Assembly: GCF_900188275.1 (NCBI RefSeq)
Contig: NZ_FZNY01000002.1
Span: forward strand, 496,001-560,000
Source of the DNA: Dokdonia pacifica
GTDB taxonomy: Bacteria > Bacteroidota > Bacteroidia > Flavobacteriales > Flavobacteriaceae
DNA: 64,000 bases
Reading direction: 5' to 3'
Translations under genes and position numbers: made by a program
Shown here: piece by piece, positions 19,880 through 39,338 of the stretch
How positions within the stretch are numbered: position 1 is the stretch's first letter
Layout: each line of letters begins with the position of its first letter
Notes under the pieces: model-generated
Database searches by the model: none
What the model was told of the DNA's origin: nothing
The model's input: only the letters and a program-made list of their open reading frames with translations

Positions 19880-19928
19880 AAAGTGTACACTTTCGGACAT
19901 AAAGTGTATCAAAATCGGACACTTTTAT
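19880..19928. promoter_or_regulatory. Candidate enhancer sites for the sigma-54 regulator
   Basis: A perfect palindrome AAAGTGTACACTTT (19880-19893) is followed by AAAGTGT and ACACTTT arms at 19901-19907 and 19919-19925. TCGGACA repeats at 19893 and 19915, 22 bp apart. The 27 nt at 19902-19928 recur at 39198-39224 with one mismatch. Located between the divergent regulator and adaptor genes. Confidence 0.65.
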
Positions 19929-19973
19929 TTTTTCAAAAAACCACAAATTAATGATTATCAAATGCTTAGTGTT

Positions 19974-19989
19974 TTGGCATCATATTCAC
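19974..19989 (+). promoter_or_regulatory. Sigma-54-like promoter before the adaptor gene
   Basis: TTGGCATCATATTCAC: a good -24 box (TGGCAT), but a poor -12 box lacking the usual GC. It is supported by conservation at 39269-39285 and by lying exactly 48 bp beyond the shared motif in both places. A transcript from here would exclude the in-frame ATG at 19962. Confidence 0.45.
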
Positions 19990-20018
19990 TAGTTAGAGGT
20001 ATAACCAAAAAAACAAAA

Positions 20019-21269
20019 ATGGACGTACCAATTGAAAAGAAAAAATTCTCAAAACAAAAATTGCTAACTATAGGTGGTATTGTAGCAATCCTTGCATTGA
20101 TAGCTTATGTTATTTTTCAAACATCTGGAGGTTCTAAACTCAATGTAGAAAAAGAACGGATTTCTATTAGTACGATAAAAAAGGATGTATTTCAAGAAAA
20201 TATTCCTGTAAATGGGATCGTATTACCCATTACGACCATCTATTTAGATGCACTAGAAGGCGGACGTGTAGAAGAAAAATTTGTTGAAGACGGCGCAATA
20301 CTAAAAAAGGGAGAACCTATTTTAAGATTATCAAATACAGATTTGGAGTTGAGTCTTATTAATCAAGAGACCTCTGTTTATAATCTATTAACGCAAATGC
20401 AAATCTCTCAAAATGCAGCACGTCAAAATACAATTAATAGACAGAATCAATTTACTGATGTAGAGAATAATCTTATTGAAGCAGAGCGTGTATACAATCT
20501 AAATAAGCGTTTATACGATAAGGGAGCAATTGGTCGACAAGATTATGAATCATCAAAAAATAATTATGACTACCAGACTGAGCGTATGAAACTCGCAAAG
20601 CAAGTGCTATCTGAAGATTCTATCTCTTCAAAACTTGAAATAAACCAAGCGAGAGATTCCTATGCTAGAACACAAAGCGCTTTAGAGTTAATGCGCAAAA
20701 AGGTAGGAGATTTAGTAGTGCGTGCTCCGATAGATGGGCAATTAACATCTTTAGATGCAGAAATTGGACAGTCTATAAATAAAGGAACTCGCCTAGGTCA
20801 AGTAGATGTTACCACTGGATATAAGGTAAGAGTAGATATTGATGAACATTATATATCAAGAATATATACTGGACAAACAGGAACTTTCACTCTCAATGAA
20901 AAGTTATACACCTTAACGATAAAGAAAGTCTTTACTCAGGTTACCAATGGCCGTTTCCAAGTAGATATGACCTTTGAAGGTGAAGTGCCAGAAGGCATAC
21001 GAAGAGGACAAAATCTACAGATTAGAGTAGCCCTAAGCGCTGAAAAACAAGCGGTATTGATCCCTAAAGGTGGCTTCTTTCAAAAAACAGGAGGTAATTG
21101 GGTCTTTAAAGTAAGTGAGAATGGAGATAGTGCCTACAAAGTAAATATACGATTAGGAAGTCAAAATACAGCATATTACGAAGTGATAGAAGGATTAAAT
21201 CCTGGAGATAAAGTAATCACATCAAGCTATGACTCTTATGGTGATATCGATGAACTGATTTTGAAGTGA
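20019..21269 (+). CDS. Periplasmic adaptor (HlyD/MacA-type membrane fusion protein)
   Basis: A 416-residue adaptor linking inner membrane permeases to an outer membrane channel. One N-terminal span (about 15-33) is followed by a lipoyl-like half (VNGIVLPITTIYLDALEGGRV), a coiled-coil hairpin (about 110-215, rich in Gln/Asn/Arg), the second lipoyl half (VGDLVVRAPIDGQLTSLDAE) and beta-barrel and membrane-proximal domains. The ATG at 20019 is preferred over 19962, which lies upstream of the probable promoter. It heads the long transport operon; the matching ATPase is 58 bp downstream and the TolC-like protein is at 43168. Confidence 0.9.
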   Translation: MDVPIEKKKFSKQKLLTIGGIVAILALIAYVIFQTSGGSKLNVEKERISISTIKKDVFQENIPVNGIVLPITTIYLDALEGGRVEEKFVEDGAILKKGEPILRLSNTDLELSLINQETSVYNLLTQMQISQNAARQNTINRQNQFTDVENNLIEAERVYNLNKRLYDKGAIGRQDYESSKNNYDYQTERMKLAKQVLSEDSISSKLEINQARDSYARTQSALELMRKKVGDLVVRAPIDGQLTSLDAEIGQSINKGTRLGQVDVTTGYKVRVDIDEHYISRIYTGQTGTFTLNEKLYTLTIKKVFTQVTNGRFQVDMTFEGEVPEGIRRGQNLQIRVALSAEKQAVLIPKGGFFQKTGGNWVFKVSENGDSAYKVNIRLGSQNTAYYEVIEGLNPGDKVITSSYDSYGDIDELILK

Positions 21270-21327
21270 TCTGAAAAAAAAATAATACTGAATATAAAAA
21301 CAAGAATAGCTAATAAAACTTAATACA

Positions 21328-22005
21328 ATGATACAAATTACTGACTTAGAAAAATTTTATAAAACGGAAGAGGTACAGACTATTGCCTTAAACAAATTAT
21401 CATTTGAAGTTAAGAATGGAGAATTTGTAGCCATCATGGGGCCTTCAGGTTGTGGTAAATCTACATTGTTAAATATCATAGGACTTCTAGACGACCCAGA
21501 CGGAGGGAGTTTTCAATTTAATGGCGAGGAAGTTTCTAATTATAATGAGCGCAAACGTTCTGAATTAAGAAAGCACAATGTAGGTTTTGTATTTCAGAGC
21601 TTTAACTTAATAGATGAATTGACTGTTTTTGAAAACGTTGAGTTACCTCTTATATACACTGGCGTAAAACCTGCCGAGCGTAAAAAACGTGTAGAAGAGG
21701 TATTAGAAAAAATGCAAATTATGCATCGTCGTAATCATTTTCCGCAGCAATTATCTGGAGGGCAACAACAACGTGTCGCTGTAGCACGGGCGGTTGTAAA
21801 TAACCCAAAATTAATTTTGGCCGACGAGCCAACAGGAAATTTAGATAGTACAAATGGTAATGAAGTAATGGATTTACTTATAGATCTCAATGAAGCGGGT
21901 ACTACTATCATTATGGTGACACATAGTGAACATGATGCTAAATATAGTCACAGAATCATCAGAATGTTAGATGGTCAAAAAGTGACCGAGAATATCTTGG
22001 TGTAA
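21328..22005 (+). CDS. ABC transporter ATPase, MacB/LolD type
   Basis: A 225-residue ATPase. Walker A is GPSGCGKST, the Q loop VFQSFNLIDELTV, the signature LSGGQQQRVAVARAVV, Walker B LILADEPTGNLDS and the switch His VTHSEHD. All are intact. The length and sequence are those of the MacB/LolD/FtsE group, which drives mechanotransmission rather than transport through the membrane. It sits between the adaptor and the first permease and must energise some or all of the eight permeases. A second ATPase of the same group is at 42480. Start ATG 21328. Confidence 0.95.
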   Translation: MIQITDLEKFYKTEEVQTIALNKLSFEVKNGEFVAIMGPSGCGKSTLLNIIGLLDDPDGGSFQFNGEEVSNYNERKRSELRKHNVGFVFQSFNLIDELTVFENVELPLIYTGVKPAERKKRVEEVLEKMQIMHRRNHFPQQLSGGQQQRVAVARAVVNNPKLILADEPTGNLDSTNGNEVMDLLIDLNEAGTTIIMVTHSEHDAKYSHRIIRMLDGQKVTENILV

Positions 22006-22073
22006 TCATCAATCATCAATCAATACTTGCATCTAGCAAACAATCAAAAAACGAACAGTAATTCTTTTCAATC

Positions 22074-24509
22074 ATGCTTAAAAATTATTTCAAAATAGCG
22101 GTTAGAAACCTTCTTAAAAACAAGGGCTTCTCATTTATAAACATTTTTGGCTTGAGCATAGGTGTAGCTGCCTGCATTTTAATTTCAATTTATATTTTTC
22201 ACGAAAGTAGTTATGATAAACACGTTGCTAATTCTGAAAACATATACAGATTAAATCGTGATTATGTAGATGGAGACCGTGTTGACACTGGCATACATTT
22301 TTCAGCAAATACCGCACCTACACTCATAACAGATTTTGAAGAGGTAGAAAACGCAGGAAGACTAATGTCTAATGGTTTGTTTTGGGGAGCTGGAAGTAAT
22401 GAGATTCGTTTTGATGGAGAAGACACTCAATACTATGAAGAGAATTTCACCTATGCAGATCAAGCTATCATTGATATTATGGATGTTCAAATGGTGTATG
22501 GACAACGCAGAACAGCACTTTCAAAACCCAATACGATAGTTATTTCTGAAACTATAGCAGAAAAATACTTTAGAAACCAGAATCCTATTGGACGCAGTAT
22601 GTATTTAAATGGTAACAATGAAAGACCATTTAAAATAACTGGAGTCATGGAAGATTTTAAGAGTAATTCTCATTTAGATTTTGACTTCTTTATAACATTA
22701 AAAGATGTAGAGTTCGGAGAAGGAGAGCAAACACGATGGTTTCAAAACAATTATTTTACCTACGTGACGCTGAAACCGGGAGTAGATATTCCTGCATTTG
22801 AAGCTAAGATGAATACTATATTGATGGAAAAGTACATAAAACCATCATATAAATTAGCAGGATTTGCTGGATGGGAAAATGCAGAAGAGAAAGAGATCAC
22901 AAACTTACAACCATTAACCGCTATTAACCTCTACTCTACACATGTAGATTATGAATCAAATTCTCGAAACGATATAAAGATTATTTGGATTTTTGGTATT
23001 GTAGCATTGTTTATTCTCATTATAGCTAGTATTAATTTTGTAAATCTCTCTACTGCAAAATCTGCTAATCGTGCAAAAGAGGTAGGATTAAGGAAAGTAG
23101 TTGGTTCTTCACGAACACAACTTATAAGTCAGTTTCTGGTAGAATCTATATTAATCTCGTTAATTGCTTTTATTTTAGGTATACTCTTATCAGCCCTATT
23201 AATGCCGTTGTTTAGAACAACGTCTGGAATAGATCTTGTTATACCATGGTCTAATATTGGCTTTATACCTACTGCCATAGGTGTATCTATTATTGTAGGT
23301 ATTCTTGCAGGTTTGTACCCGTCTTTTTACCTCTCAAGTTTTAACCCTATAAATGTGCTTAAGGGAAAGCTTAGTTCAAAAAGTAAATCTGGCGGATTAA
23401 GAAGTAGCTTGGTGGTATTTCAATTTACAGTATCCATTATTTTAATTGTTGGAACGCTCATTGTTAACCAGCAAATGAATCATATTTTAACTTCAAAAAT
23501 TGGTTTTGAAAAAGATCAGGTCGTTCAAATCTATAGTACCAATGCATTAAATGAACAGGTAGAAACATTTAAAGAAGAACTTAAAAAACTACCTGGAGTA
23601 AACAATGTCACTATTAGTGATTATTTACCCATTAATGGAACAAAACGAAACGGAAATAGTTTTGTAAATGAAGGAAGAGATGGTCTAGATGAAACGATTC
23701 CTGGACAAGCTTGGGTTATTGATGAAGATTATATTGAAACTATGGGTATGACCCTAGTGAATGGACGTAATTTCATTAAGGGCAGAACTTCAGATGAACA
23801 AGCCGTTATTATGAACCAAGCGATGGTAAAAGCGCTAAGGTTAGAAGATCCAGTAGGAAAACGAGTATCAAGATATGGACAGCTTTGGGAAATTATTGGA
23901 GTGGTAGAAGATTTCAATTTTGATACCATGAAAACTACCGTGAGACCTCTTTGTTTTTTTAGTGGTATAAGCCCTTCAATTACTTCCGTTAAAATTAATA
24001 CGAATGATGTTTCTGCAGTCTTAGCATCTATGGAAAACAAATGGACAGAATTTGTTCCTAATATGGCTTTTCGTTACGAGTTTATGGATGCTTCATTTGC
24101 AAAAATGTACGATAATGTAAGTAGAATAAAAGTCATATTTACTGCCTTTGCCATTCTAGCGATATTAGTGGCTTGTCTAGGCTTACTGGCACTATCTGCT
24201 TATATGGTAGAGCAACGCAATAAAGAAATGAGTGTTAGAAAAGTTTTAGGCGCTTCTATACAAACCATTTTTAAACTATTAACAGGAAAGTTTTTAAGCT
24301 TAATCTTAGTAGCACTAGTTATCGCTATTCCTATCGCTTATTATTTAATGAATACATGGTTACAAGATTATGAATACAGAATAGAAATGTCATGGACTGT
24401 ATTCCTATTTGCAGGGATTATGGTTTTAATTATTGCACTAGCAACTATTAGCTATCATGCCATGAAGTCAGCTTTAATCAGCCCGGCAAAGGTATTAAGG
24501 TCAGAATAA
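22074..24509 (+). CDS. FtsX/MacB-type ABC permease, copy 1 of 8
   Basis: An 811-residue permease made of two fused halves. Each half has one N-terminal span, a large periplasmic MacB-like domain and three spans, so about eight spans in total. Spans are seen near 21-42, 302-325, 352-378, 400-425, 445-465, 685-708, 738-760 and 775-797. Cytoplasmic coupling helices are AKEVGLRKVVGSSRTQL and NKEMSVRKVLGAS; the Met-Ser in the second differs from the usual Ile-Gly. The 5' region, including about 40 bp of leader, is nearly identical to that of copy 2, which points to a tandem duplication. The single chain supplies both halves normally made by a dimer. Confidence 0.93.
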   Translation: MLKNYFKIAVRNLLKNKGFSFINIFGLSIGVAACILISIYIFHESSYDKHVANSENIYRLNRDYVDGDRVDTGIHFSANTAPTLITDFEEVENAGRLMSNGLFWGAGSNEIRFDGEDTQYYEENFTYADQAIIDIMDVQMVYGQRRTALSKPNTIVISETIAEKYFRNQNPIGRSMYLNGNNERPFKITGVMEDFKSNSHLDFDFFITLKDVEFGEGEQTRWFQNNYFTYVTLKPGVDIPAFEAKMNTILMEKYIKPSYKLAGFAGWENAEEKEITNLQPLTAINLYSTHVDYESNSRNDIKIIWIFGIVALFILIIASINFVNLSTAKSANRAKEVGLRKVVGSSRTQLISQFLVESILISLIAFILGILLSALLMPLFRTTSGIDLVIPWSNIGFIPTAIGVSIIVGILAGLYPSFYLSSFNPINVLKGKLSSKSKSGGLRSSLVVFQFTVSIILIVGTLIVNQQMNHILTSKIGFEKDQVVQIYSTNALNEQVETFKEELKKLPGVNNVTISDYLPINGTKRNGNSFVNEGRDGLDETIPGQAWVIDEDYIETMGMTLVNGRNFIKGRTSDEQAVIMNQAMVKALRLEDPVGKRVSRYGQLWEIIGVVEDFNFDTMKTTVRPLCFFSGISPSITSVKINTNDVSAVLASMENKWTEFVPNMAFRYEFMDASFAKMYDNVSRIKVIFTAFAILAILVACLGLLALSAYMVEQRNKEMSVRKVLGASIQTIFKLLTGKFLSLILVALVIAIPIAYYLMNTWLQDYEYRIEMSWTVFLFAGIMVLIIALATISYHAMKSALISPAKVLRSE

Positions 24510-24553
24510 ATCATCAGCAAACAATCAAAAACGAACAGTAATTCTTTTCAATC

Positions 24554-26953
24554 ATGATTAAAAATTATTTCAAAATAGCGTTTAGGAACCTTCTTAAAAA
24601 CAAGGTATATTCTCTAATTAATATATCTGGTTTGGCTATTGGTATGGCAGCTACTATGTTAATAGGGCTTTGGATTTTTGACGAACTTAATTACAACAAT
24701 TATTTTAAAGATAAAGCGACCATAGCACAAGTATTTCAGCATGAATCTGCTAATAATATAGTAGATACAGGTCCTGCTATCCCAAGACCTTTAGAGTTTG
24801 CTCTTCGTGAAGATCATGCCGATAATTTTAAACATATTATTATGGCATCTTGGGAGCAACCGAGATATCTTAAGCATGGCGAAACCAACATTAATCGTTT
24901 AGGTCATGCTATACAAGAAGGAGCTACAGAAATGTTGAATTTAGAAGTAGTTGAAGGGGTTAGAGATGGTTTAAAAGAAAAGAATTCTATTATGATTTCT
25001 AAGTCTACTTCAGCATCATTATTTGGGTCTGAAACAGCTATAGGCAAAATCATTAAAGTAAATAACCAGCACGACCTAGTAGTGACAGGAGTTTACAACG
25101 ATATCCCTGAAAACAACTCGTTTAGTGATGTAGACTATTTAATCCCTTGGAAACATTATATCAGTTCTCAAGAATGGATTGAAAATGCTAAAACATCATG
25201 GGGAAATAACTCTTTTCAGATGTTTGCTCAGATTAATGACAATACTACTATGGAAGCAGTAACATCAAAGATCATTGATGTTAAAAAGAATGCTTCTCCT
25301 GAGGAAGCAGAATTTAATCCTCAGATTTTTTTATTCCCAATGGATGATTGGCACTTACGAAGTGATTTTGAAAACGGAGTACAATCTGGCGGACGTATAG
25401 AAAATGTATGGTTATTTGGAGTGATTGGTATTTTTATCTTATTACTAGCTTGTATCAATTTTGTAAATTTAAGTACAGCACGTTCTGAAAAGCGAGCTAC
25501 AGAAGTAGGGATACGTAAATCTATAGGCTCACATCGTGGTCAACTTATTTTTCAGTTTCTAACTGAGTCATTCTCTATAGTCCTTTTAGCTTTTGTAGTT
25601 GCCATTGGGATTGTATTAATAAGTCTTAACGGGTTTAATAATCTTGCTAGTAAAGCAATTATCTTTCCATGGAGTAATGGCATGTTCTGGCTAGCTTCAC
25701 TCCTATTCATTTTAATAACTTCTGTTTTATCAGGAAGCTATCCAGCATTGTATTTATCATCTTTCAATCCAGTATCAGTATTAAAAGGGACTTTTAAAGC
25801 TGGGCGTTATTCTTCATTACCACGTAAAGTTTTAGTAGTGACTCAGTTTACAGTATCTATCGCACTTATTATTGGAACATTAGTGGTTATTAACCAAATT
25901 CAATTTAGTAAAGACAGACCTGTAGGCTATAATAGGGATGGGCTTATTCAGATTCCTGTTATGAGTTCTGAGTTTATTGGTAAGCATGAAACCATGCGTA
26001 CTCAATTTGTTGCATCAGGTGGAGCCATAAGTATGACGACCATGAGTGGTCCTGCTACTCAAGTCTGGTCTAATAGAAGTGGTTATACTTGGGAAGGTAA
26101 ACCTGTAGGGTTTCAAGAAGATTTAGCACATACCTCTGTAAATTATGATTTTGTAAAAACCTTAGGTTTAAAACTCGTTGAAGGTAGAGGATTTTCTAGG
26201 GACTTCCCAACAGACTCTAATGCTGTAATTCTTAATAGTACAGCGGTGAAATATATGGGAATTAAAGACCCCATTGGAAAATATATCAGAGATTCAGATG
26301 TAGATGATCCATTTACACCATTAAAGATTATAGGAGTTATAGATGATATGATTGTTCAGTCCCCTTATAGCCCTGTAAAACAATCAATGTATGTCTTTGA
26401 AAAGTATGGGAATATTGCTTTTTATGACCTACGATTAAATCCAGCTAAAAGTACAAGCGAAAACTTAGCATTGATAGAAAGTGTTTTCAAAAAGAATTTT
26501 CCTAATACACCTTTTGATTATCAATTTGTAGATGAAGAATTTGGCAAGAAGTTTAGAGCAGAAGAGCGCATTGCTAGTTTGGCAAGAGTATTTACTCTCC
26601 TGGCTATTTTTATAAGTTGTTTGGGACTTTTTGGTTTAGCATCTTTTGTTGCAGAACAACGTACCAAAGAAATTGGTGTCCGTAAAGTTTTAGGAGCTTC
26701 TATTAGTCAATTATGGATGTTATTATCCAAAGATTTTATAAAGCTCGTAGTTGTTGCACTTTTAATAGCATCTCCAGTTGCCTATTACATTATGGGACAA
26801 TGGCTGCAAAAGTTCAGTTATCGAACCTCAGTCACGTGGGATGTAATTGCTATTGCTTGTTTTGGGGCTTTAATTATCACCCTTATTACAGTAAGCTTTC
26901 AAGCAATTAAAGCAGCCACATCAAACCCTGTAAAGTCTCTAAGAACAGAATAA
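24554..26953 (+). CDS. FtsX/MacB-type ABC permease, copy 2 of 8
   Basis: A 799-residue two-half permease. Coupling helices are TEVGIRKSIGSHRGQL and TKEIGVRKVLGASISQL. It is closest to copy 6 (34274), which has the same length and shares PRKVLVVTQFTVSIALI in the middle linker and the same C-terminal half pattern (ERIASL.RVFTLLAIFISC). Its leader and first codons instead match copy 1. The mix suggests duplication followed by recombination or conversion among the copies. It starts 44 bp after copy 1 with no terminator between, so it belongs to the same transcript. Substrate unknown; lipoprotein, peptide or toxic-compound handling are all possible. Confidence 0.93.
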   Translation: MIKNYFKIAFRNLLKNKVYSLINISGLAIGMAATMLIGLWIFDELNYNNYFKDKATIAQVFQHESANNIVDTGPAIPRPLEFALREDHADNFKHIIMASWEQPRYLKHGETNINRLGHAIQEGATEMLNLEVVEGVRDGLKEKNSIMISKSTSASLFGSETAIGKIIKVNNQHDLVVTGVYNDIPENNSFSDVDYLIPWKHYISSQEWIENAKTSWGNNSFQMFAQINDNTTMEAVTSKIIDVKKNASPEEAEFNPQIFLFPMDDWHLRSDFENGVQSGGRIENVWLFGVIGIFILLLACINFVNLSTARSEKRATEVGIRKSIGSHRGQLIFQFLTESFSIVLLAFVVAIGIVLISLNGFNNLASKAIIFPWSNGMFWLASLLFILITSVLSGSYPALYLSSFNPVSVLKGTFKAGRYSSLPRKVLVVTQFTVSIALIIGTLVVINQIQFSKDRPVGYNRDGLIQIPVMSSEFIGKHETMRTQFVASGGAISMTTMSGPATQVWSNRSGYTWEGKPVGFQEDLAHTSVNYDFVKTLGLKLVEGRGFSRDFPTDSNAVILNSTAVKYMGIKDPIGKYIRDSDVDDPFTPLKIIGVIDDMIVQSPYSPVKQSMYVFEKYGNIAFYDLRLNPAKSTSENLALIESVFKKNFPNTPFDYQFVDEEFGKKFRAEERIASLARVFTLLAIFISCLGLFGLASFVAEQRTKEIGVRKVLGASISQLWMLLSKDFIKLVVVALLIASPVAYYIMGQWLQKFSYRTSVTWDVIAIACFGALIITLITVSFQAIKAATSNPVKSLRTE

Positions 26954-26976
26954 ACACTCACAATCAAAAAACAATC

Positions 26977-29391
26977 ATGATTTATAATTATTTCAAAATA
27001 GCACTCCGTAACCTTTGGAAAAATAAAGTGTTTACATTCCTAAATATTTTAGGACTTAGTGTCGCCTTTTGTGTTGCTACTTTACTATCCATAGCTTCTC
27101 TAAACAATTTAGCTGAAGATCAATTTCATACAAACAAAGACAATCTTTATAAGGTATATGCTACCGAGCAAACTTCTAAAGGCCCCGAAGAAGTATCATC
27201 TAGATCTACACCATTTGCACCTACACTAAAAGATGAAGTTCCGGGAATAAAGAAAATCACACGTCATTTAGAAGAAAATGTAGTGGTTTCCTATGAAGAT
27301 AAAGAACTGCAACTTGATGTCAGTTATATAGATCCAGACTTTTTTGAGATGTTTTCTTTCCCAGTAATAAAAGGAGAAAACACATCACCTCTTTCACAAA
27401 AATCATCGGTCGCTTTAACGCAAGAAACAGCAAAACTCTTATTTGGAAATGAAGATGTTATAGGAAAAACAATTTTACTACAAGGGCAAGATGCCAAAGA
27501 ACCATTTATTATAAGCGCCATTCTAAAAGATATTCCAAAAGAAAGCTCAATGGGCTTTGATCTGTTAGTTGCTTATGAAAATAACGCATATTACAAGCAA
27601 ACATTAGACGATTGGAGTAGCAGATTCCATAGTGTATACCTACAACTAGACGAAGGAGTAACGACACAACAATTTGAAGAACGCACAAGAGCATTTGTAG
27701 CACAATACTATCGAGAAAATATAGAAAACGCTATCCGAGACGGTGTTCAAAAAGATGCAAATGGACAATATTATCAATTACGCTTATTTCCATATGTAGA
27801 TTCGGTATTTACAAAGTTTAAAGGAGGAATTGCAAAAACTTCTCGAATTATGCCCTATCTGATTTTATGTATTGCAATACTCATCCTATTTATTGCCAGT
27901 GTCAACTTTATAAACATGAATGTAGCTAAAGGAGGACAACGCTTACGCGAAATCGGAATGCGAAAAACACTAGGTGCAACAAAATCCCAACTATTCATTC
28001 AGCTTTGGGTAGAAAGTCTTTTTGTTTTTTCAATTTCCATCATTCTTGGATTGTTATTAGGCTATGCACTTCTCAATGATTTTCAAACACTATTCAGAAC
28101 TAGCGGAACATTTGGAACCTTACTAAGTCCAGAAATCCTAAGCTTATTTGTTATTGCAATTATCCTTATAACGCTTATTGCTGGAGGTTATCCTGCCCTA
28201 CTCCTTAGTAAATTAGGCACTCTTAAAGCATTAAAAGGAAAAATGGAAGCGAGAGACAGCAACCGCCTCAGAAATACATTAATCGTCATACAGTTCAGTA
28301 TTGCCATTTTACTCATTAGTGGCACACTCGTATTAAATAAACAAATTGATTTCTTACGACATAAAGACCTAGGATTTGATAAAAGCAATGTCATCTCCAT
28401 TCCGTTAAATGGTAGTTTAGATAGTTATACCGCATTAAGCAGATTACGCAACGAATTACAAAGCGAACCAGAAATTCTAAGCATTACTGCTGCAGATAAT
28501 AATCTAGGTTCTGGAAGAGACGGTAGTGGATATATGAGTATCTCTGGGTTTGATTATGAAGGAAGAAGTATAAAAACACATAACCTCACTGTAGACTATG
28601 ACTATATAGAAACCTTAAACCTAGAATTAGTTGCTGGTAGAAGCTTTGACAGACAATTTGCCACAGATAGTCTTGCCATGGTCATCAATGAAACAATGGC
28701 TAAAGAATATGGCAAAGAAAACCCATTAGACGTTGTTGTTTCATTTGACGATAGCATTAGATACAAGGTAATTGGTGTTGTAAAAGATTACAATTTCCAA
28801 GGACTAAAAAAAGAAGTGGAACCCCTTACCTTCTACTTAGATCCTAATGTAGGTTATTATTACGCTTTCGCGAAAATAAACCCAGATAAAGCTGTAGGTG
28901 CGTATGATAAAATAGAAAAAGCATGGAACAAAATAGAACCCGAAGCCACATTCTTAGGTTCCTTTTTAGATGAAAATATAGATAGAACTTTAAGAAGAGA
29001 AAAAGTCCTTACCAAAATTATTACAAGCGGATCTATCGTAGCGATTCTCTTAAGCTGCATAGGACTATTCGCCATTTCTATGATTGTTGTCAATCAAAGA
29101 ACAAAAGAAATTGGGGTTCGAAAAATAGTAGGTGCTAGTGTACCAGGTCTTGTAAAATTACTACTATCAGACTTCTTAAAACTTGTAGTCTTAGCCTTTG
29201 TAATTGCGACACCCATAGCATGGTGGATGAGTTCCAAATGGCTAGAAGATTACTCGTATAAAATTACCCTTAATCTTGGCGTATTCATTATAGCCGGTCT
29301 CATAGCTATTATTATAGCCATGCTTACCATTGGTTATAAAACAATGCATGCGGCATTACAGAATCCTGTAAAATCATTAAGAACTGAATAA
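26977..29391 (+). CDS. FtsX/MacB-type ABC permease, copy 3 of 8
   Basis: An 804-residue two-half permease and one of the more divergent copies. The first inner segment reads NFINMNVAKGGQRLREIG in place of the NLSTA pattern of most copies. Coupling helices are REIGMRKTLGATKSQL and TKEIGVRKIVGAS. A partial recurrent palindrome (GCTTTCGCGAAA, 28864-28875) encodes AFAKI in the second periplasmic domain. It has the same start codons and span layout as its neighbours, 23 bp after copy 2. The next copy begins 2 bp after its stop, so the two are translationally coupled. Confidence 0.93.
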   Translation: MIYNYFKIALRNLWKNKVFTFLNILGLSVAFCVATLLSIASLNNLAEDQFHTNKDNLYKVYATEQTSKGPEEVSSRSTPFAPTLKDEVPGIKKITRHLEENVVVSYEDKELQLDVSYIDPDFFEMFSFPVIKGENTSPLSQKSSVALTQETAKLLFGNEDVIGKTILLQGQDAKEPFIISAILKDIPKESSMGFDLLVAYENNAYYKQTLDDWSSRFHSVYLQLDEGVTTQQFEERTRAFVAQYYRENIENAIRDGVQKDANGQYYQLRLFPYVDSVFTKFKGGIAKTSRIMPYLILCIAILILFIASVNFINMNVAKGGQRLREIGMRKTLGATKSQLFIQLWVESLFVFSISIILGLLLGYALLNDFQTLFRTSGTFGTLLSPEILSLFVIAIILITLIAGGYPALLLSKLGTLKALKGKMEARDSNRLRNTLIVIQFSIAILLISGTLVLNKQIDFLRHKDLGFDKSNVISIPLNGSLDSYTALSRLRNELQSEPEILSITAADNNLGSGRDGSGYMSISGFDYEGRSIKTHNLTVDYDYIETLNLELVAGRSFDRQFATDSLAMVINETMAKEYGKENPLDVVVSFDDSIRYKVIGVVKDYNFQGLKKEVEPLTFYLDPNVGYYYAFAKINPDKAVGAYDKIEKAWNKIEPEATFLGSFLDENIDRTLRREKVLTKIITSGSIVAILLSCIGLFAISMIVVNQRTKEIGVRKIVGASVPGLVKLLLSDFLKLVVLAFVIATPIAWWMSSKWLEDYSYKITLNLGVFIIAGLIAIIIAMLTIGYKTMHAALQNPVKSLRTE

Positions 29392-29393
29392 TT

Positions 29394-31772: not shown

Positions 31773-31799
31773 ATATCAATCAATCAAAATCAAATCATC

Positions 31800-34244
31800 A
31801 TGATCAAGAATTATTTCAAAATAGCGTGGAGAAACATCATGAAAAACAAGGTGTTTTCTCTTATCAATGTGATAGGACTTACCATTGGTCTAAGTGCATC
31901 ATTTGTCATTGGTTTAATGATTTTTTACGATGCTACATTTGATAATTTTCATAAAGATGGTGATCGTATATATAGAGTAGTCACAGATTTTAAAGCTCCA
32001 GAAGGTCAATTCTATAATCCAGGGGTTACCCTTGCTTTGAAAGATGCTATAAAAGGCAACTCAAACTTTGAAGTGATAAGCGAGTTCTACATAGAACGCC
32101 CTATGAAAGTAGAGAACAGAGCAAACAACCTTGAATTTAAATTACCAAAGTTTGCCATTTTTGCAGACCAAGATTATTTTAAAATTTTCGATTATACGTT
32201 TATAGCAGGAGATCATACCAATACATTAAACAATCCCAATGAAGTTATATTAACTAAAGAACGTGCTGAAAAATATTTTCCAAATACAGAAATCTCTGAT
32301 ATTATTGGTAAGACTCTTGTTTATAACGATTCTATTAATACTACCGTAAAAGGAATCGTAGAAAACTTTGAAAATAGAACAGATATTGTTTTTCAAGAGT
32401 TCATATCACACCCTACTTTACTTCAAACAAGGATGCGAGAGAACATTATCAGAAAGAATTGGAATAATACCAATTCTAGTTCTCAACTGTTTGTAAAACT
32501 AACGCCAAATGCTGATATCGCCTCCATTAAAGAACGCTTTAAAAGTATTGCTACAGAACATGCTGATGAAGAAGATATAAAATATAATCAAGAACGAATT
32601 TTTCAATTACAGACATTAAACGATATTCATTTTAATGAAAACTATGGAATCTATGATTGGTCTAGTGGACAAGCAAGTAAATCCTTATTAAAAAACTTAG
32701 CACTTGTAGCGCTCTTCCTACTATTATTAGGTTGTATTAATTTTATTAACCTAAATACAGCACAAGCGACACAACGTGCTAAGGAGATAGGCATTCGTAA
32801 GACCCTAGGAAGTTCTAGAAAACAATTGATTAGTCAGTTTATGGGAGAAACATTTCTATTGGTTATAATAGCCGCTCTCCTATCACTATTACTATCAAGG
32901 TGGTTAATTAATGTCTTCTCTGATTTTGTCCCAAAAGACTTAAGCTTTGAATTATTTAAAGCCCCAATTGTTGCTATGAGTGTCATCGTTCTTTTAGTGA
33001 TCGTAACATTCTTATCAGGATTCTACCCCGCAATGGTTCTTTCAAAATTTAATACCGTATCTGTATTAAAAAACCACCTAGCAGTTGGAGAAAAGAAAGT
33101 AAAGCTTAGAAAGTTCCTAACAGTATTCCAGTTTACAATTGCACAGGTCTTTATTATTGCTACACTTTTAGTTGGTAAACAAATAAATTACTTGTTGAGT
33201 AAAGACATGGGCTTTAAAAGTGATGCTGTCATCTCTACTTTCAGACCCATTGGAGAAAGTGGACTTGATAAAATGGAATTATTTGCAGAAAAACTACAAT
33301 CTATTCCTGAAATAAATAAGATAAGTCTGGGTAACTACACACCAGCTTCTTTTAGCTCAAATACTACTACCATGACAAGAATAGACAATGGTAAAGAGAT
33401 ATACGGTGATATACAACTGCTACATGGCGACACTAATTATTTAGAGCTCTTTGAGATTGATTTATTAGCTGGTAGAACGAGGCTTAATGATACGATCAAA
33501 GAACTGGTTATTAATGATACTGCTCGTAAATTTTATGGATTTAATACGCCAGAAGAAGCAGTAGGGCAAACCCTTACATATGAAGATGAAGCACTCCCAA
33601 TAGTAGGAGTCATGGAAGATTTTCATCAACGTTCATTAAAAACGGAAATTAAACCTATGAGTTTTTTAGGTGATTTTTACAGAGGGAATTGGACCTACTT
33701 TTCACAAGCTCACATTGCTTTAAAAAATGAATCTTCAGATAATTTAGAAAATACGATTACTAAAATCGAAAATGAGTATAAAGCTATTTTCCCAGGGGAA
33801 GCATTTAGAATGCAGTTTTTAGATGAAACCATAGAAAATTTTTACAAGAGAGAGCAAAAGATCTCTAAGCTCTTAAATTGGGCAACAGGATTATCAATTT
33901 TAATAAGTTGCCTAGGGCTTTTAGGTTTAGTGATTTATACTACAAATAGACGTGTTAAAGAAATTGGAGTACGCAAAGTATTAGGAGCATCACTATTTCA
34001 AATTAATACACTTTTATGTAAAGAGTTCCTCATTTTAGTCACTATTGCTTTTGTTGTAGCCTCACCTCTAGCCTGGTATGGTATTCATAATTGGCTTCAG
34101 GATTTTGCATATAAGACCTCTATTAGCTTTTGGGTATTTCTAATAAGTGGTTTAGCAATGATCATCTTTGCTTTATTGATCATAAGCGCAAAAACATTAC
34201 AAGCTGCAAATGCAAATCCTGTAAATTCATTACGATCAGAATAA
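31800..34244 (+). CDS. FtsX/MacB-type ABC permease, copy 5 of 8
   Basis: An 814-residue two-half permease, the longest of the set. Coupling helices are AKEIGIRKTLGSSRKQL and VKEIGVRKVLGASLFQI. The middle linker (VKLRKFLTVFQFTIAQVFII) is distinct from the others. The first spans lie at about 18-42 and the last four at about 690-800. It is preceded by a CAATCAATCAAAATC leader 28 bp after copy 4. The first 27 nt of the coding region closely match copies 1, 2 and 8 at the nucleotide level, including silent positions. Confidence 0.93.
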   Translation: MIKNYFKIAWRNIMKNKVFSLINVIGLTIGLSASFVIGLMIFYDATFDNFHKDGDRIYRVVTDFKAPEGQFYNPGVTLALKDAIKGNSNFEVISEFYIERPMKVENRANNLEFKLPKFAIFADQDYFKIFDYTFIAGDHTNTLNNPNEVILTKERAEKYFPNTEISDIIGKTLVYNDSINTTVKGIVENFENRTDIVFQEFISHPTLLQTRMRENIIRKNWNNTNSSSQLFVKLTPNADIASIKERFKSIATEHADEEDIKYNQERIFQLQTLNDIHFNENYGIYDWSSGQASKSLLKNLALVALFLLLLGCINFINLNTAQATQRAKEIGIRKTLGSSRKQLISQFMGETFLLVIIAALLSLLLSRWLINVFSDFVPKDLSFELFKAPIVAMSVIVLLVIVTFLSGFYPAMVLSKFNTVSVLKNHLAVGEKKVKLRKFLTVFQFTIAQVFIIATLLVGKQINYLLSKDMGFKSDAVISTFRPIGESGLDKMELFAEKLQSIPEINKISLGNYTPASFSSNTTTMTRIDNGKEIYGDIQLLHGDTNYLELFEIDLLAGRTRLNDTIKELVINDTARKFYGFNTPEEAVGQTLTYEDEALPIVGVMEDFHQRSLKTEIKPMSFLGDFYRGNWTYFSQAHIALKNESSDNLENTITKIENEYKAIFPGEAFRMQFLDETIENFYKREQKISKLLNWATGLSILISCLGLLGLVIYTTNRRVKEIGVRKVLGASLFQINTLLCKEFLILVTIAFVVASPLAWYGIHNWLQDFAYKTSISFWVFLISGLAMIIFALLIISAKTLQAANANPVNSLRSE

Positions 34245-34273
34245 GTCTCACACCCATTTAAAAATAAATAGCA

Positions 34274-36673
34274 ATGCTTAAGAACAATCTAAAAATAGCG
34301 TATAGAAGTCTTAAAAAAAACAAGATATACTCATTTATCAATATTGTTGGCCTAGCGTTAGGAATTGCTGTAACGATGATTATTGGTCTGTGGATAGCTG
34401 ATGAATTTGATTACAACAATCATTTTGAAAACAAGGATCGCATTGCTCGTATAATGCAACATCAAACAGTTAATGGAGAGGTACACTCTAATGAAACTAT
34501 TCCCCTTGCATTAGAATTTCAATTGCGAGATCAATTTGGAGATGCATTTACACATATTGTAATGTCTTCACGTAATAATGGACGCTTTCTTTCTGTAGAC
34601 AATGAAGTGATTTCTACTAGGGGCCGTTTTATGCAAGCAGATGCTCCAGACCTTTTAAATCTGGAAATGATACAAGGAACCCGCAATGGATTAGAAAAAA
34701 TAAACTCCATTTTACTTTCTGAATCTACAGCAAAAACAATTTTTGGCAACGAAAACCCAATAGGTAAATCGGTTATGTCAAATAATGAACATGCCATGGA
34801 AGTAACAGGAGTATATAAAGATATCCCTAGTAATAATAGTTTTTCTAATCTCCAGTTTTTAATGCCTTTCAAACATTGGATGAATACTAGATGGAGTTGG
34901 TTAGAAAATCAAGATACAAATTGGGACTATAATTCTTTTGACCTCTTTGTAGAACTATCCGAAAATGTAGATCTCACTGCTGTAAATACTCGTATTGAAA
35001 ATGTAAAAAAGGATAATGACCCACGAGGAGATAAATTTGACCCAAGATTATTTGTATTTCCAATGACCGACTGGTATTTGTATTCTCAATTTGAAAATGG
35101 TGCTCAAGTTGGAGGTCGTATTGATAATGTTTGGTTATTTGGTCTTATTGGCCTTTTTGTGCTCATCCTTGCAAGTATAAATTTTATGAATTTAAGTACT
35201 GCACGATCTGAAAAACGAGCACTCGAAGTAGGTATTAGAAAATCCATAGGTTCAACACGTAGACAGCTCATTCATCAGTTTTTGAGTGAGTCATTTCTAG
35301 TGGTATTATTAGCATATATCATTGCTATTGGATTGACTTTACTTTCCATCAACTCATTTAACACCTTAGCAGGAAAAGAAGTTGTTTTTCCTTGGCTTAA
35401 TCCCTTATTCTGGGGAGTTTCAATACTCTTTATTATACTCACGGCATTAATCTCTGGAAGTTATCCTGCCTTATATTTATCATCATTTAAACCCATTAAA
35501 GTGCTTAAAGGAACTTTCAAAATGGGGAGAAATGCTTTGCTTCCGCGAAAAGTGCTTGTTGTAACTCAATTTACGGTTTCTATTGCATTGATTATAGGGA
35601 CACTCGTTGTCAAAAACCAAATCGATTATAGCAAGGATAGGCCTATAGGTTTTGAAAGTTCACAGCTTGTTCAAATACCCACATCCAGCCAAGAATTTCA
35701 AAATAAGTATGAAGTAATGCGTAATCAGTTTATAAACTCAGGCGTCGTTACTCAAATGGCTTGGGGAAGCAGTCCCTCTACACGTATATGGAATTATTCA
35801 TCTGGGTATGAATGGGATGGAAAACCTCTAGATTTTGATGAGAGCCTTGCACAAATGGGAATCTCTTATGATTATATTGATGCGCTCGAAATGAAAATAA
35901 TTGAGGGGCGTTCTTTTTCTAGAGAGTTTACTACAGATTCTAGTGCTGTTATTCTCAATAAAACTGCGGTAGCCTATATGGGAATTCAAAACCCTGTTGG
36001 GAAATACATCCGAGAGACAGAGCCAGGACCTAATAGTGTGCCTATGCAAATTGTAGGTGTGGTAGAAGATGTGATAAATGAATCGGCTTACGAACCTGTA
36101 TCACCACAAATGTATATGTTTGGAAGTGGCTATGGCGGATTCTATTATTTGAGACTTGATCCTGATAAAACAACTAGTGAAAGTCTAGCTACTATCGAAA
36201 AAATATATAAAGCAAATTTTCCAAACCTTCCTTTCAACTACGACTTTGTAGATGAGGAATATGCACAAAACTTCATTGCCGAAGAACGCATTGCAAGCCT
36301 TTCTAGTGTATTTACTTTACTCGCTATTCTCATAAGCTGTTTAGGTCTATTTGGACTCACATCTTTTGTTGCAGAACAGCGCACTAAAGAAATAGGGGTG
36401 CGCAAAGTATTGGGGGCAACAGTTACAAACCTTTGGATGCTGCTTTCAAAAGATTTTATCATCCTTGTTGGCATAGCATTATTACTAGCAGTACCACTCA
36501 CCTACTATTTTATGAGCGATTGGATTGAAAAGTTCTCTTATCGCACAGACATTTCAATACAGGTATTCTTGATTGCTGGATTCGGCGCTATGCTAATTAC
36601 AATGATAACTGTAAGTTTTCAAGCAATTAAAGCAGCCATAGCCAATCCTGTTAACTCATTACGATCAGAATAA
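34274..36673 (+). CDS. FtsX/MacB-type ABC permease, copy 6 of 8
   Basis: A 799-residue two-half permease, the closest paralogue of copy 2 (equal length; shared PRKVLVVTQFTVSIALI, ALYLSSF.P..VLKGTFK and SGYEWDGKP compared with SGYTWEGKP). Coupling helices are LEVGIRKSIGSTRRQL and TKEIGVRKVLGATVTNL. Copies 2 and 6 being separated by three other copies means that the array was not built by simple adjacent duplication. It lies 29 bp after copy 5. The intergenic region after it carries a 26-bp perfect palindrome. Confidence 0.93.
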   Translation: MLKNNLKIAYRSLKKNKIYSFINIVGLALGIAVTMIIGLWIADEFDYNNHFENKDRIARIMQHQTVNGEVHSNETIPLALEFQLRDQFGDAFTHIVMSSRNNGRFLSVDNEVISTRGRFMQADAPDLLNLEMIQGTRNGLEKINSILLSESTAKTIFGNENPIGKSVMSNNEHAMEVTGVYKDIPSNNSFSNLQFLMPFKHWMNTRWSWLENQDTNWDYNSFDLFVELSENVDLTAVNTRIENVKKDNDPRGDKFDPRLFVFPMTDWYLYSQFENGAQVGGRIDNVWLFGLIGLFVLILASINFMNLSTARSEKRALEVGIRKSIGSTRRQLIHQFLSESFLVVLLAYIIAIGLTLLSINSFNTLAGKEVVFPWLNPLFWGVSILFIILTALISGSYPALYLSSFKPIKVLKGTFKMGRNALLPRKVLVVTQFTVSIALIIGTLVVKNQIDYSKDRPIGFESSQLVQIPTSSQEFQNKYEVMRNQFINSGVVTQMAWGSSPSTRIWNYSSGYEWDGKPLDFDESLAQMGISYDYIDALEMKIIEGRSFSREFTTDSSAVILNKTAVAYMGIQNPVGKYIRETEPGPNSVPMQIVGVVEDVINESAYEPVSPQMYMFGSGYGGFYYLRLDPDKTTSESLATIEKIYKANFPNLPFNYDFVDEEYAQNFIAEERIASLSSVFTLLAILISCLGLFGLTSFVAEQRTKEIGVRKVLGATVTNLWMLLSKDFIILVGIALLLAVPLTYYFMSDWIEKFSYRTDISIQVFLIAGFGAMLITMITVSFQAIKAAIANPVNSLRSE

Positions 36674-36708
36674 ATGAGATGAGGGTACTTCATATAAAGT
36701 GAAAATAA

Positions 36709-36734
36709 GTGTACGCTTTCGCGAAAGCGTACAC
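36709..36734. repeat. 26-bp perfect palindrome, GCTTTCGCGAAAGC family
   Basis: GTGTA-CGCTTTCGCGAAAGCG-TACAC between permease copies 6 and 7, 16 bp before the start of copy 7. It could form a hairpin in the polycistronic mRNA. There is no T tract, so termination is unlikely. Confidence 0.8.
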
Positions 36735-36749
36735 ATAAAACTAAGAATC

Positions 36750-39146
36750 ATGATTAAAAACTATATCAAAATAGCATTTAGAAATTTTTGGAGAAATAAG
36801 CTTACTAGTTTTATCAATTTGGTGGGACTTTCCTTAGGTTTAGCCGCCTGCATTTTGATTACTATGTATGTTTCTCACGAAAAGAGTTATGACAGTTTTC
36901 ATAAGGATTCGAAGCGCATTTTTACTGTTGTTGGTAAATTTAAAATTGGTGATGACGATATCAGAATGACAAGGCTTAGCTCCATTGTCGCTTCGCAATT
37001 AAAAGAAAATGATCCGAGTGTAGAGGATGCATTTCGATATTATGAGCATAATCAATCGGTAAGCATAAAAACAAGTGCCTCAAGTAGTGAAGTGTTTTCT
37101 GAAAATAACCTTGCCGCAGCTGATGCCAATTTATTTTCCTTTTTCTCTTTTGATTTAATAAGAGGAAATCCTACTGATGTTTTGAAAACTCCATTTTCTG
37201 TAGTTCTAACAAATAAAGCTGCTGAGAAGTATTTTGCGAAAGCGGACCCTATAGGAAAACAACTTATCATACAACAGGATAGTACTTATAGTTTTACGAT
37301 AACGGGTGTTATGAAAGATTTTCCAACGAATTCTTCTATACAATCTGATATGATAGTCTCTATGTCTAGCCTATCATCCATGAAGGAGACACAACCTTTA
37401 TTAGCATCAGAACGATTTCAAGGAGGAAGTTTTGCAACATATGTCAAGCTGAATGATCTTACGAAAGTAACTGCTGTAGCCAATACTGCTGTACAACTTG
37501 ATAAACTTAGTAATGAAGAATCTACCACTACATATGCATTGGATTTATTTACAGATACCCACGCCCAAACTGCAAATACAGGTCGTTTTGATTATTTAAA
37601 GGTATTTCCAATAGTGGCTTTGCTCATTTTAATTTTAGCACTTACAAATTACATAAGCCTTACTACAGCTAGAGCAGGTACAAGGGCAAAAGAGGTAGGC
37701 GTGCGAAAAATAAGCGGAGCTAATAGAAGAAGTCTTGCGATACAATTTTATATAGAATCAGGGATTTTTGTTTCTATTTCTTTCTTACTAGGAATCGCTA
37801 TCAGTAGTATTTTTAAAGATCGCTTTTTAGAATTATTAAATATAGAAATTGGTAATGCCTTTTTCTATGACAGATCATTTATAACTGCACTAATAGGTCT
37901 GTTTATTTTTGCTGTTTTTGTTTCTGGTGTGTATCCAGCCATTGTATTATCGTCATTAAACCCTGTAAAGAATTTCAAAAATAAATTAGCAAAAAATACA
38001 GGAAGTGTATCTGTTAGAAAAGTATTTACAACATTTCAATTTACCATTGCAGTATTACTTATTGTTTGTGGTATTGTCATGAGTACACAATTAGAATATA
38101 TGCGTACGAAGGATACTGGTTTACAACGGTCTAATGTCATGATGATTCCCATTGAAACTAGTATTGCAACTAATGCTAATACATTAAGGAATAAGGTTGA
38201 AAATCTTTCTGAAGTCGCACAAACAACAGTGGCTATGAACAAGATGTATGGTGGCTACAATATTTATTTTGCATCAAAAGAAAACAGTGATGAAAATTAT
38301 AGTGTATCCACATTTAATGTAGATGAACACTTCATAGAAACATTAGGAGTTTCTTGGTATTTAGAACCGGAAGAAAGGACTGCATTTTCAGAAAATAAAA
38401 AAGTAATTATCAATCAAAAAACAATTGACGAATTAGGATTAAAACAAGATCCAAGAGGTGAGCAAATGAGTTTTGGTAGTCAATTTTTTGAAATCGCTGG
38501 TGTGGTCAAAGATTTCAATTATACATCTTTAGAAGTGCCTATTAAACCTCTGGCCTTTTTTGTGAGTTCTGAGGCCTCTGCAAATAAGAATATGATGGGT
38601 ACTTTTAGTACGTGTCTATATGTAAAGTTTCATGATGAAGTAGCGTTATCTGGTTTACTGGATAAAATTGAAAACATCTATTCATCTCTTGATGAAACAA
38701 CACCTTTTACGTATCAATTTATGGACGATGCATTTGATACACTCTATAAAGCCGAAGAGCGTTTATCATCTATCTTTTACATCTTCATGGTACTAGCATT
38801 AGTAATAGCTAGTTTAGGGCTTCTGGGGTTAATTACTTTTGCTTCAGAGCAACGTGTAAAAGAAATAGGTATCCGCAAAGTTCTGGGTGCTTCTATTTCC
38901 GAAATAGTCGTCTTATTATCTACCGACTTTATAAAGTTAGTAGTATTAGCCATTATTATAGCGGTTCCATTGGCATGGTATTTTGCAGATAGTTGGCTTA
39001 ATTACTTTGCTTTTAGAGTTGATATGCCATGGTGGTCATTTGTAATTGCAGGATTAATAGCTATTAGTATTGCCTTAACTACGGTTAGTTTTCAAGCGAT
39101 TAAAGCGGCTATTGCAAATCCTGTTAACTCGTTGCGATCAGAATAA
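36750..39146 (+). CDS. FtsX/MacB-type ABC permease, copy 7 of 8
   Basis: A 798-residue two-half permease. ATG 36750 is chosen because it gives the family N-terminus MIKNYIKIAFRNFWRNK; the longer frame from 36699 runs through the palindrome at 36709. Coupling helices are AKEVGVRKISGANRRSL, where Ser-Gly replaces the usual Leu-Gly, and VKEIGIRKVLGAS. The segment NYISLTTARAG differs from the NLSTA pattern. After its stop at 39146 comes a 192-bp gap with a second promoter-like region, so it may end one transcript while copy 8 begins another. Confidence 0.93.
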   Translation: MIKNYIKIAFRNFWRNKLTSFINLVGLSLGLAACILITMYVSHEKSYDSFHKDSKRIFTVVGKFKIGDDDIRMTRLSSIVASQLKENDPSVEDAFRYYEHNQSVSIKTSASSSEVFSENNLAAADANLFSFFSFDLIRGNPTDVLKTPFSVVLTNKAAEKYFAKADPIGKQLIIQQDSTYSFTITGVMKDFPTNSSIQSDMIVSMSSLSSMKETQPLLASERFQGGSFATYVKLNDLTKVTAVANTAVQLDKLSNEESTTTYALDLFTDTHAQTANTGRFDYLKVFPIVALLILILALTNYISLTTARAGTRAKEVGVRKISGANRRSLAIQFYIESGIFVSISFLLGIAISSIFKDRFLELLNIEIGNAFFYDRSFITALIGLFIFAVFVSGVYPAIVLSSLNPVKNFKNKLAKNTGSVSVRKVFTTFQFTIAVLLIVCGIVMSTQLEYMRTKDTGLQRSNVMMIPIETSIATNANTLRNKVENLSEVAQTTVAMNKMYGGYNIYFASKENSDENYSVSTFNVDEHFIETLGVSWYLEPEERTAFSENKKVIINQKTIDELGLKQDPRGEQMSFGSQFFEIAGVVKDFNYTSLEVPIKPLAFFVSSEASANKNMMGTFSTCLYVKFHDEVALSGLLDKIENIYSSLDETTPFTYQFMDDAFDTLYKAEERLSSIFYIFMVLALVIASLGLLGLITFASEQRVKEIGIRKVLGASISEIVVLLSTDFIKLVVLAIIIAVPLAWYFADSWLNYFAFRVDMPWWSFVIAGLIAISIALTTVSFQAIKAAIANPVNSLRSE

Positions 39147-39176
39147 ATTTATTTTTTTACAAAGAGAACCTTTTTT

Positions 39177-39224
39177 AAGTGTTCGATTTTGAACAAGAAG
39201 TGTATCAAAATCGAACACTTTTAT
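39177..39224. promoter_or_regulatory. Candidate enhancer sites, second copy
   Basis: Perfect 16-bp inverted arms (AAGTGTTCGATTTTGA, 39177-39192, and complement 39205-39220) with a 12-bp spacer that contains another AAGTGT. The part at 39198-39224 matches 19902-19928 with one mismatch. It could also act as a terminator for copy 7, since TTTT follows the second arm. Confidence 0.6.
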
Positions 39225-39268
39225 AGTTGTGGGTATTTGTAAATATTTAAATTACAGATATTTACATG

Positions 39269-39285
39269 TTTGGCACAATCTTCAC
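39269..39285 (+). promoter_or_regulatory. Sigma-54-like promoter before permease copy 8
   Basis: TTTGGCACAATCTTCAC: a consensus -24 box TGGCAC and the same imperfect TTCAC -12 box as at 19985. The GG lies exactly 48 bp after the end of the shared motif, as in the first copy. ATG 39339 is 54 bp downstream. Confidence 0.5.
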
Positions 39286-39338
39286 TTTATAGTTATCGAA
39301 TTCATCAATCAAAAAACGAATAGTCAAAATAGTAACCC

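Follow-up and report, generated by a model that had tools for sequence, protein, structure and literature searches.

Enhancers of sigma-54 promoters are usually described as working from flexible distances, and the canonical -12 box of these promoters has GC ten bases after the GG of the -24 element. Promoters of the NtrC/NifA type in Proteobacteria carry paired upstream dyads, an IHF-type site between these dyads and the promoter, and a TGGCA element, and are served by an AAA+ activator with a Fis-type HTH. In the available parts of PMC7962754 and PMC7057263, this UAS-IHF-promoter layout is established for Proteobacteria, and IHF commonly acts between the activator site and the promoter at RpoN promoters (PMC7962754). 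Sigma-54 control has been predicted for COG0577 FtsX-type permeases in Bacteroidia, in a report that claims the first evidence of this link in its available part (PMC12316311). The broad link between sigma-54 and FtsX permeases is thus already in the accessible published record. In Flavobacterium psychrophilum, predicted sigma-54 motifs (SM4) are located at mapped transcript starts, including that of grpE, according to the available part of PMC9723704. The MacAB-TolC, darobactin DarBCD and ADOP exporters combine an adaptor, a separate ATPase, a double MacB_PCD/FtsX permease and TolC.

We analysed a locus of Dokdonia pacifica that shares features with all of these systems. The window (the whole stretch of 64,000 nucleotides that was analysed) contains a corresponding set of putative promoter elements, with an IHF-like site among them, and the same type of activator as the proteobacterial NtrC/NifA-type promoters, but the spacing in its family is nearly fixed or shifted by approximately one turn, the IHF-like site is symmetric, and the -12 box lacks GC. 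The UAS is also nearer (approximately -88 and -109) than the 100-150 bp given in the available part of PMC7057263. The permease class under predicted sigma-54 control is the same as that of PMC12316311, but the available part of that report describes an enrichment at the level of the class and mentions neither an activator site nor the spacing of a module nor a repetition of promoters. F. psychrophilum belongs to the same family as the host of the window, but the genes described in the available part of PMC9723704 are for chaperones, gliding and the envelope. The exporter parts are those of MacAB-TolC, DarBCD and ADOP, but the locus contains eight permeases and two ATPases with one adaptor and one TolC. 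No report of a phase-locked module, of the symmetric block or of their repetition in exporter rows was found in the literature searched, which included few subscription papers.

Results

Exporter locus

The features of the locus are listed in Table 1. The kinase and regulator genes on the (-) strand are followed on the (+) strand by the genes for the adaptor, ATPase 1 and P1-P7 and, after a gap of 192 bp, by those for P8, the DUF2807 protein, ATPase 2 and TolC. This gap, which contains module 2, is the largest between the ATPase 1 and TolC genes. All other gaps are 76 bp or shorter for any start of the P7 gene, and the next largest is 76 bp with the start at 36750. The adaptor ORF as listed (from 19962) overlaps the promoter of module 1, and the start that recurs among the sequences of relatives is ATG 20019 (MDVPI…). 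Adaptor, ATPase, MacB_PCD/FtsX permease and TolC are all found at the locus, as in an exporter set of the MacAB-TolC type, and its role may be the export of peptide-like or envelope-damaging compounds.

The pairwise identity of P1-P8 is 29-58%. MacB_PCD and FtsX (Pfam) are detected in P1 and P8, and P2-P7 are assigned by similarity to these two. The cut-off of 622 bits for the ADOP duplicated permease (TIGR03434) is not reached by P1 (335) or P8 (343), and the DarC, DarD, DarB and ADOP cut-offs lie above the scores of the adaptor, the two ATPases, P1 and P8. P2 (24554-26953) and P6 (34274-36673) are 58% identical to each other, while the other permease pairs are 29-38% identical. Judged from this identity, the P2/P6 pair is a later duplication inside the permease row.

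Close to the start of the P7 gene is a perfect hairpin of 11 pairs, GTGTACGCTTTCGCGAAAGCGTACAC (36709-36734, (-) strand). At L104 and L109, its palindrome, GCTTTCGCGAAAGC, is also present 5' of the module. Beyond the exporter row, the opposite strand encodes a LytTR response regulator (45342-46118, (-)) and contains an ORF of 579 aa (46084-47823, (-)).

Table 1. Positions in the window of the two promoter modules and of the genes of the exporter locus
Feature	Position	Strand	Basis or remark
Sensor histidine kinase	17137..18480	-	HATPase_c (Pfam); overlaps regulator gene
NtrC-type response regulator, predicted activator of both modules	18470..19822	-	receiver, Sigma54_activat, HTH_8 (Pfam); GAFTDA
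Module 1, distal activator dyad TGTACACTTTCGGACA	19884..19899	+	sequence; column profile of 88 modules
Module 1, proximal activator dyad TGTATCAAAATCGGACA	19905..19921	+	inside 27-mer 19902-19928; seen in relatives
Module 1, symmetric IHF-like 25-mer	19944..19968	+	16/17 fixed positions; set-level tests
Module 1, sigma-54-like -24/-12 TGGCATCATATTCACTAGT	19975..19993	+	sequence; profile
HlyD/MacA-like periplasmic adaptor, first gene of unit 1	20019..21269	+	Pfam; NCBIfam RND_mfp over cut-off, DarC-like below
ABC ATPase 1	21328..22005	+	Pfam, NCBIfam
Double permeases P1-P7, seven in tandem	22074..39146	+	ORFs
Module 2, distal activator dyad TGTTCGATTTTGAACA	39180..39195	+	perfect 16-nt inverted repeat with proximal dyad
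Module 2, proximal activator dyad TGTATCAAAATCGAACA	39201..39217	+	inside 27-mer 39198-39224; seen in relatives
Module 2, symmetric IHF-like 25-mer	39240..39264	+	14/17; supported by fixed position only
Module 2, sigma-54-like -24/-12 TGGCACAATCTTCACTTTA	39271..39289	+	sequence
Permease 8 (P8), first gene of unit 2	39339..41693	+	Pfam
DUF2807 protein	41722..42465	+	Pfam
ABC ATPase 2	42480..43157	+	Pfam; 54% identical to ATPase 1
TolC-type outer membrane efflux protein	43168..44589	+	Pfam

Make-up of the modules

Each module begins with a pair of TGT-N10/11-ACA dyads, which are separated by two helical turns. These are followed by an IHF-like dyad, symmetric and 25 bp long, and by the -24 element TGGCA. 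The initial annotation had reported a repeated 27-nt motif, and its two copies do recur with a difference at 1 of 27 bases. This 27-mer covers the proximal dyad only; in both window copies a distal dyad begins 21 bp upstream. In module 2, both dyads together form the inverted repeat within 39177-39220. TGGCA starts at 19975 and 39271, with its first G 48 bp beyond the motif in both copies, as had been noticed. The neighbouring gene encodes, as read initially, a sigma-54 activator with a Fis-type HTH, in which the activator loop is GAFTDA, not GAFTGA.

In other activator families, the letters of the dyads change with the HTH of the activator. Among the loci of other activators from the spacing search below, those with a TRxxLYR(R/K) helix have CG in at least one dyad in 17 of 17 cases (e.g. 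TGTATCAAAACCGAACA), while it is present in the dyads of none of the 6 loci with an RQTLYNK helix (e.g. TGTCCAAAAATTGGACA and TGTAAAATAATTTTACA). This result suggests that the dyads are the predicted sites of the regulator.

Occurrence in the genome and in relatives

The initial annotation had suggested a scan of the genome for the motif and an alignment of the region in related species. When the 5.52-Mb genome was scanned with the 19-nt core GTGTATCAAAATCGNACAC, matches with up to 2 mismatches were found at the two window sites only. Four further matches have 3 mismatches, and the reversed control gives 2 matches at up to 3 mismatches. With up to 3 mismatches allowed, the composite of core, N52 and TGGCA is found at the two window sites only, and not once with the reversed control. 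Taken by itself, the promoter element is not significant genome-wide, since with up to 2 mismatches it gives 23 matches and its reversed control gives 26.

The relatives are the best 80 of 175 matches of the regulator, among which the closest named one is from an uncultured Dokdonia (91% identical). Of 41 loci chosen by us among these 80, the genomes of all but L054 were searched. The composite is found in 39 of 41 genomes (that of the window and the 40 relatives; reversed control 0), and a variant is present in the remaining two. Conservation of the module is seen next to the regulator gene, and at least two copies are present in the genomes of 29 of the 40 relatives. With the genome of the window included, 30 of 41 genomes contain two to four copies, and in these 30 genomes all copies but one share contig and strand and are located within approximately 32 kb. 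The exception (L203 in G164) precedes a lone, unlinked MacB_PCD/FtsX permease on another contig. The genome scan and the search for the composite in relatives rule out that the motif is a general repeat.

The profile of 88 distinct modules, among which only identical ones were merged, contains four main conserved blocks, which are the distal dyad GTGTNCRNTTNCGAACA, the proximal dyad GTGTATCAAAANCGRACAC, the spacer block YAANNNNYTGATWWTYARNNNNTTR and TTTGGCAYCATCTTCACTATAT. Entry into the profile required both the core, with no more than 3 mismatches, and a TGGC separated from it by a gap of 52 nt. The conservation of the proximal core and TGGC is therefore partly due to this selection, which was not applied to the distal dyad, to the spacer block or to the positions past TGGC.

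Among 28 loci with a downstream module (L183-L202 and L204-L211), the gene that comes after the last module encodes a P8-type permease in 22, the DUF2807 protein in 4 and ATPase 2 in 2. ATPase 2 is encoded downstream of the last module in 27 of them, and the sequence of L185 ends before that point. Since the last module precedes the genes for ATPase 2 and TolC, the second promoter would serve the tail that carries them. An extra module precedes another permease at L207, and the simpler loci L214 and L215 have a single module with adaptor, ATPase, permease and TolC. A few loci suggest that the rows may acquire modules while acquiring genes. Extra modules are also located before genes for a PF00144 beta-lactamase-family serine hydrolase (L195 and L213) and an S41 peptidase (L195), which is a hint of a regulon that may pair export with peptide cleavage.

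Spacing and phasing

When up to 4 mismatches and gaps of 44-59 nt are allowed, 113 distinct modules are obtained, and the gap between core and TGGC is 52 nt in 92 of them, 51 in 11, 50 in 4, 53 in 2 and another length in 4. A recent duplication as the cause of the equal spacing is unsupported. Agreement at the 19 uninformative spacer columns is 0.376 between modules within one locus (14 pairs), 0.370 between loci and 0.26 for the window pair, with 0.382 expected from composition. The spacers of one locus are no more alike than unrelated ones, indicating that the equal spacing does not come from a fresh copy.

At loci of other activators, two TGT-N10/11-ACA sites 20-24 bp apart, followed by TGGYA 55-100 bp on, are found at 27 of 56 loci and in 0 of 1120 shuffled upstream regions; this strict pattern gives nothing at the other 29 loci. 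At four loci that offer a choice of two sites, we retained the site that scores higher for the IHF-like block. The distance between dyads and promoter is 68-70 bp at 13 of the 27 loci, 79-82 bp at 14 and 71-78 bp at none. Without L102-L110, nine homologues that are nearer than the rest (67-80% identical), the pattern is found at 22 of 47 loci, with 8 in the short class and 14 in the long class. Two distance classes approximately one helical turn apart are what a constraint to one face of the helix predicts.

The -12 box

The -12 box is non-canonical, as initially described. GC is present ten bases after the GG in none of 89 modules (only identical ones merged), and AC is present there in 79. 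The canonical spacing is matched by the grpE promoters examined, and TGGCAN6TTGC is found at 22 of 30 grpE loci of the same order. Among 27 promoters that belong to related activators, 4 do have GC at N10, with, for example, TTCGCT where the window family has TTCACT, and the likeliest change is therefore G to A at -13. The genome encodes RpoN, with one PF04552 match.

Among the 80 regulator relatives (the best 80 of 175), the loop is GAFTDA in 65, GAFTGA in 8 and GSFTDA in 1, and 6 give no match. GAFTDA is listed among the loop variants expected to stay active in the available part of PMC4641369. It was rejected as the cause of the odd -12 box, because the 8 relatives with GAFTGA likewise lack GC at N10. 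A sigma-54 regulator frame of 390 aa with GAFTSA (L003, G000:C12:200243-201397) may stop before the Fis-type HTH, and a similar extent recurs among many of the matches listed. At 12 grpE promoters (L134-L137, L139, L142-L144, L147, L149, L150 and L154), a conserved direct repeat TGACATTTTGACA is located directly 5' of the canonical TGGCAGTACTTTTGC.

IHF-like block

The right half of the 25-mer of module 1 (19956-19968) matches WATCAANNNNTTR exactly (9/9), and module 2 matches it at 6 of 9 positions. This consensus is quoted from the available part of PMC5963220, and exact sites for it occur 12 times in the 64-kb window. For the whole 25-mer, the 16/17 of module 1 is one of only two such scores in 64 kb, while 23 places there reach at least the 14 of module 2.

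Sets of promoters were compared with shuffled sequences, anchored at TGGCA. The mean score of 17 is 15.7 for the derivation set (65 sequences; shuffles 10.2, 0/500), 13.8 for the non-flavobacterial promoters (17, without L076 of Bizionia, a member of the Flavobacteriaceae; shuffles 9.6, 0/2000), 11.6 for unselected TGGCA sites upstream of L111-L128 (25, without L102-L110, some of which are in the derivation set; shuffles 9.4, 0/2000) and 11.3, with a top score of 12, for a control of 22 canonical, near-identical grpE promoters (shuffles 9.7, 0/2000), and no probability can be read from these values, since the shuffles are mononucleotide shuffles of related sequences. Duplicates were removed at 75% within the derivation set and within the non-flavobacterial set, but not within the L111-L128 set. 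The grpE set also scores above its shuffles, indicating that relatedness of the sequences inflates the outcome of these tests; the difference at grpE is a lower score of the block, not its absence. A block of at least 13 at TGGCA is found at 12 of 18 loci of L111-L128 (offset up to 4) versus 0 of 22 grpE promoters (offset up to 2). In the class with the longer distance, three promoters have their best block (at least 14) 10-11 bp farther upstream when 25 offsets are tried. The genome encodes two HU/IHF-fold proteins, with HU-beta and IHF-alpha as best matches, neither of which passes an IHF cut-off.

Discussion

The initial annotation proposed two co-regulated promoters under one sigma-54 activator, and the comparative evidence strongly favours this proposal. 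Very probably, the kinase/NtrC-type pair encoded beside the exporter row activates both units via sigma-54, with each copy acting as a complete promoter module. The kinase would phosphorylate the regulator, and dimers of the regulator would then bind to both dyads, centred at approximately -109 and -88 relative to the predicted starts near 20001-20003 and 39297-39299. A protein of the IHF/HU fold probably takes part and would bend the DNA at the symmetric dyad centred at approximately -45, such that the AAA+ ring contacts sigma-54 polymerase at TGGCA (-24)/TTCAC (-12) and the promoter is opened. Module 1 would start the adaptor, ATPase 1 and P1-P7, and module 2 would start P8, the DUF2807 protein, ATPase 2 and TolC, probably as two separate transcripts. 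With one module for each unit, all exporter parts would be induced together despite a row of approximately 25 kb. No terminator-like site is called before the second promoter, and read-through is therefore possible, in which case the second promoter may be an internal booster.

The second copy may instead be mainly an RNA element, in which 39177-39220 forms a terminator-like or processing hairpin at the end of the P7 transcript and the resemblance to a promoter is a coincidence. This copy folds at -21.9 kcal/mol (z approximately -7), and the median z of the other modules is -3.6 (n=40) versus -2.0 for first modules (n=49), a comparison that is only suggestive with mononucleotide shuffles. However, first modules lie between divergent genes and are conserved there without any upstream gene to terminate, the distance to TGGCA is fixed, certain second modules fold poorly (the weakest at -6.1 kcal/mol), and the second module is without a called terminator, so that we regard this explanation as very improbable. 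Scarcely more credible is that dyads and regulator are real and the promoter is that of another sigma factor, such as the -33/-7 type of Bacteroidota, with TGGCA as part of another element. The -12 box is off-consensus in all 89 modules and TATA-like letters come after the promoter element in the module profile, but the sigma-54 interaction domain of the activator is complete, TGGCA recurs at a fixed spacing (although TGGC was required in building the profile), and the related promoters that retain GC at N10 point to sigma-54.

The nature of the symmetric block is less certain. It is quite conceivable, if somewhat doubtful, that another dimeric regulator uses the 25-mer as its operator, or that the 25-mer reflects a weaker sequence preference near -24, rather than a site for IHF/HU. 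The 25-mer is palindromic while the E. coli IHF consensus is not, the HU/IHF-fold proteins fall below every IHF cut-off, and the grpE promoters score lower and yet are non-random. On the other hand, each half of the 25-mer resembles WATCARNNNNTTR, exactly so in module 1, and the 25-mer lies between the activator site and the promoter, which is the usual place of IHF at RpoN promoters in the available part of PMC7962754. The high-scoring blocks at L111-L128, set against none at grpE, likewise argue for an IHF-like site. If the block is bound by an IHF/HU-fold protein, its symmetry suggests a homodimer.

Beyond the window, we tentatively propose, as a generalization that we hold to be plausible and a little short of probable, that the sigma-54 frame of Bacteroidota is phase-locked, with dyads 21-23 bp apart, approximately 70 or 80 bp (one turn) to -24, a homodimeric HU/IHF-fold site between them and a degenerate -12 box. 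Families of NtrC-type activators would swap the letters of the dyads within this frame, and ABC-exporter rows would grow by copies of it, also in trans.

Distances that hold nearly to the base pair, or differ by one turn, across species and activator families offer a natural series for studying how activator, bend and polymerase fit together. The off-consensus -12 box beside the canonical grpE promoters of the same order poses a clean question on how -12 is read. In Bacteroidota, the module can be searched for in order to assign regulons to NtrC-type regulators and to rows of FtsX permeases. The control of a large exporter set becomes directly testable, and the whole exporter row is probably under a single sensor.
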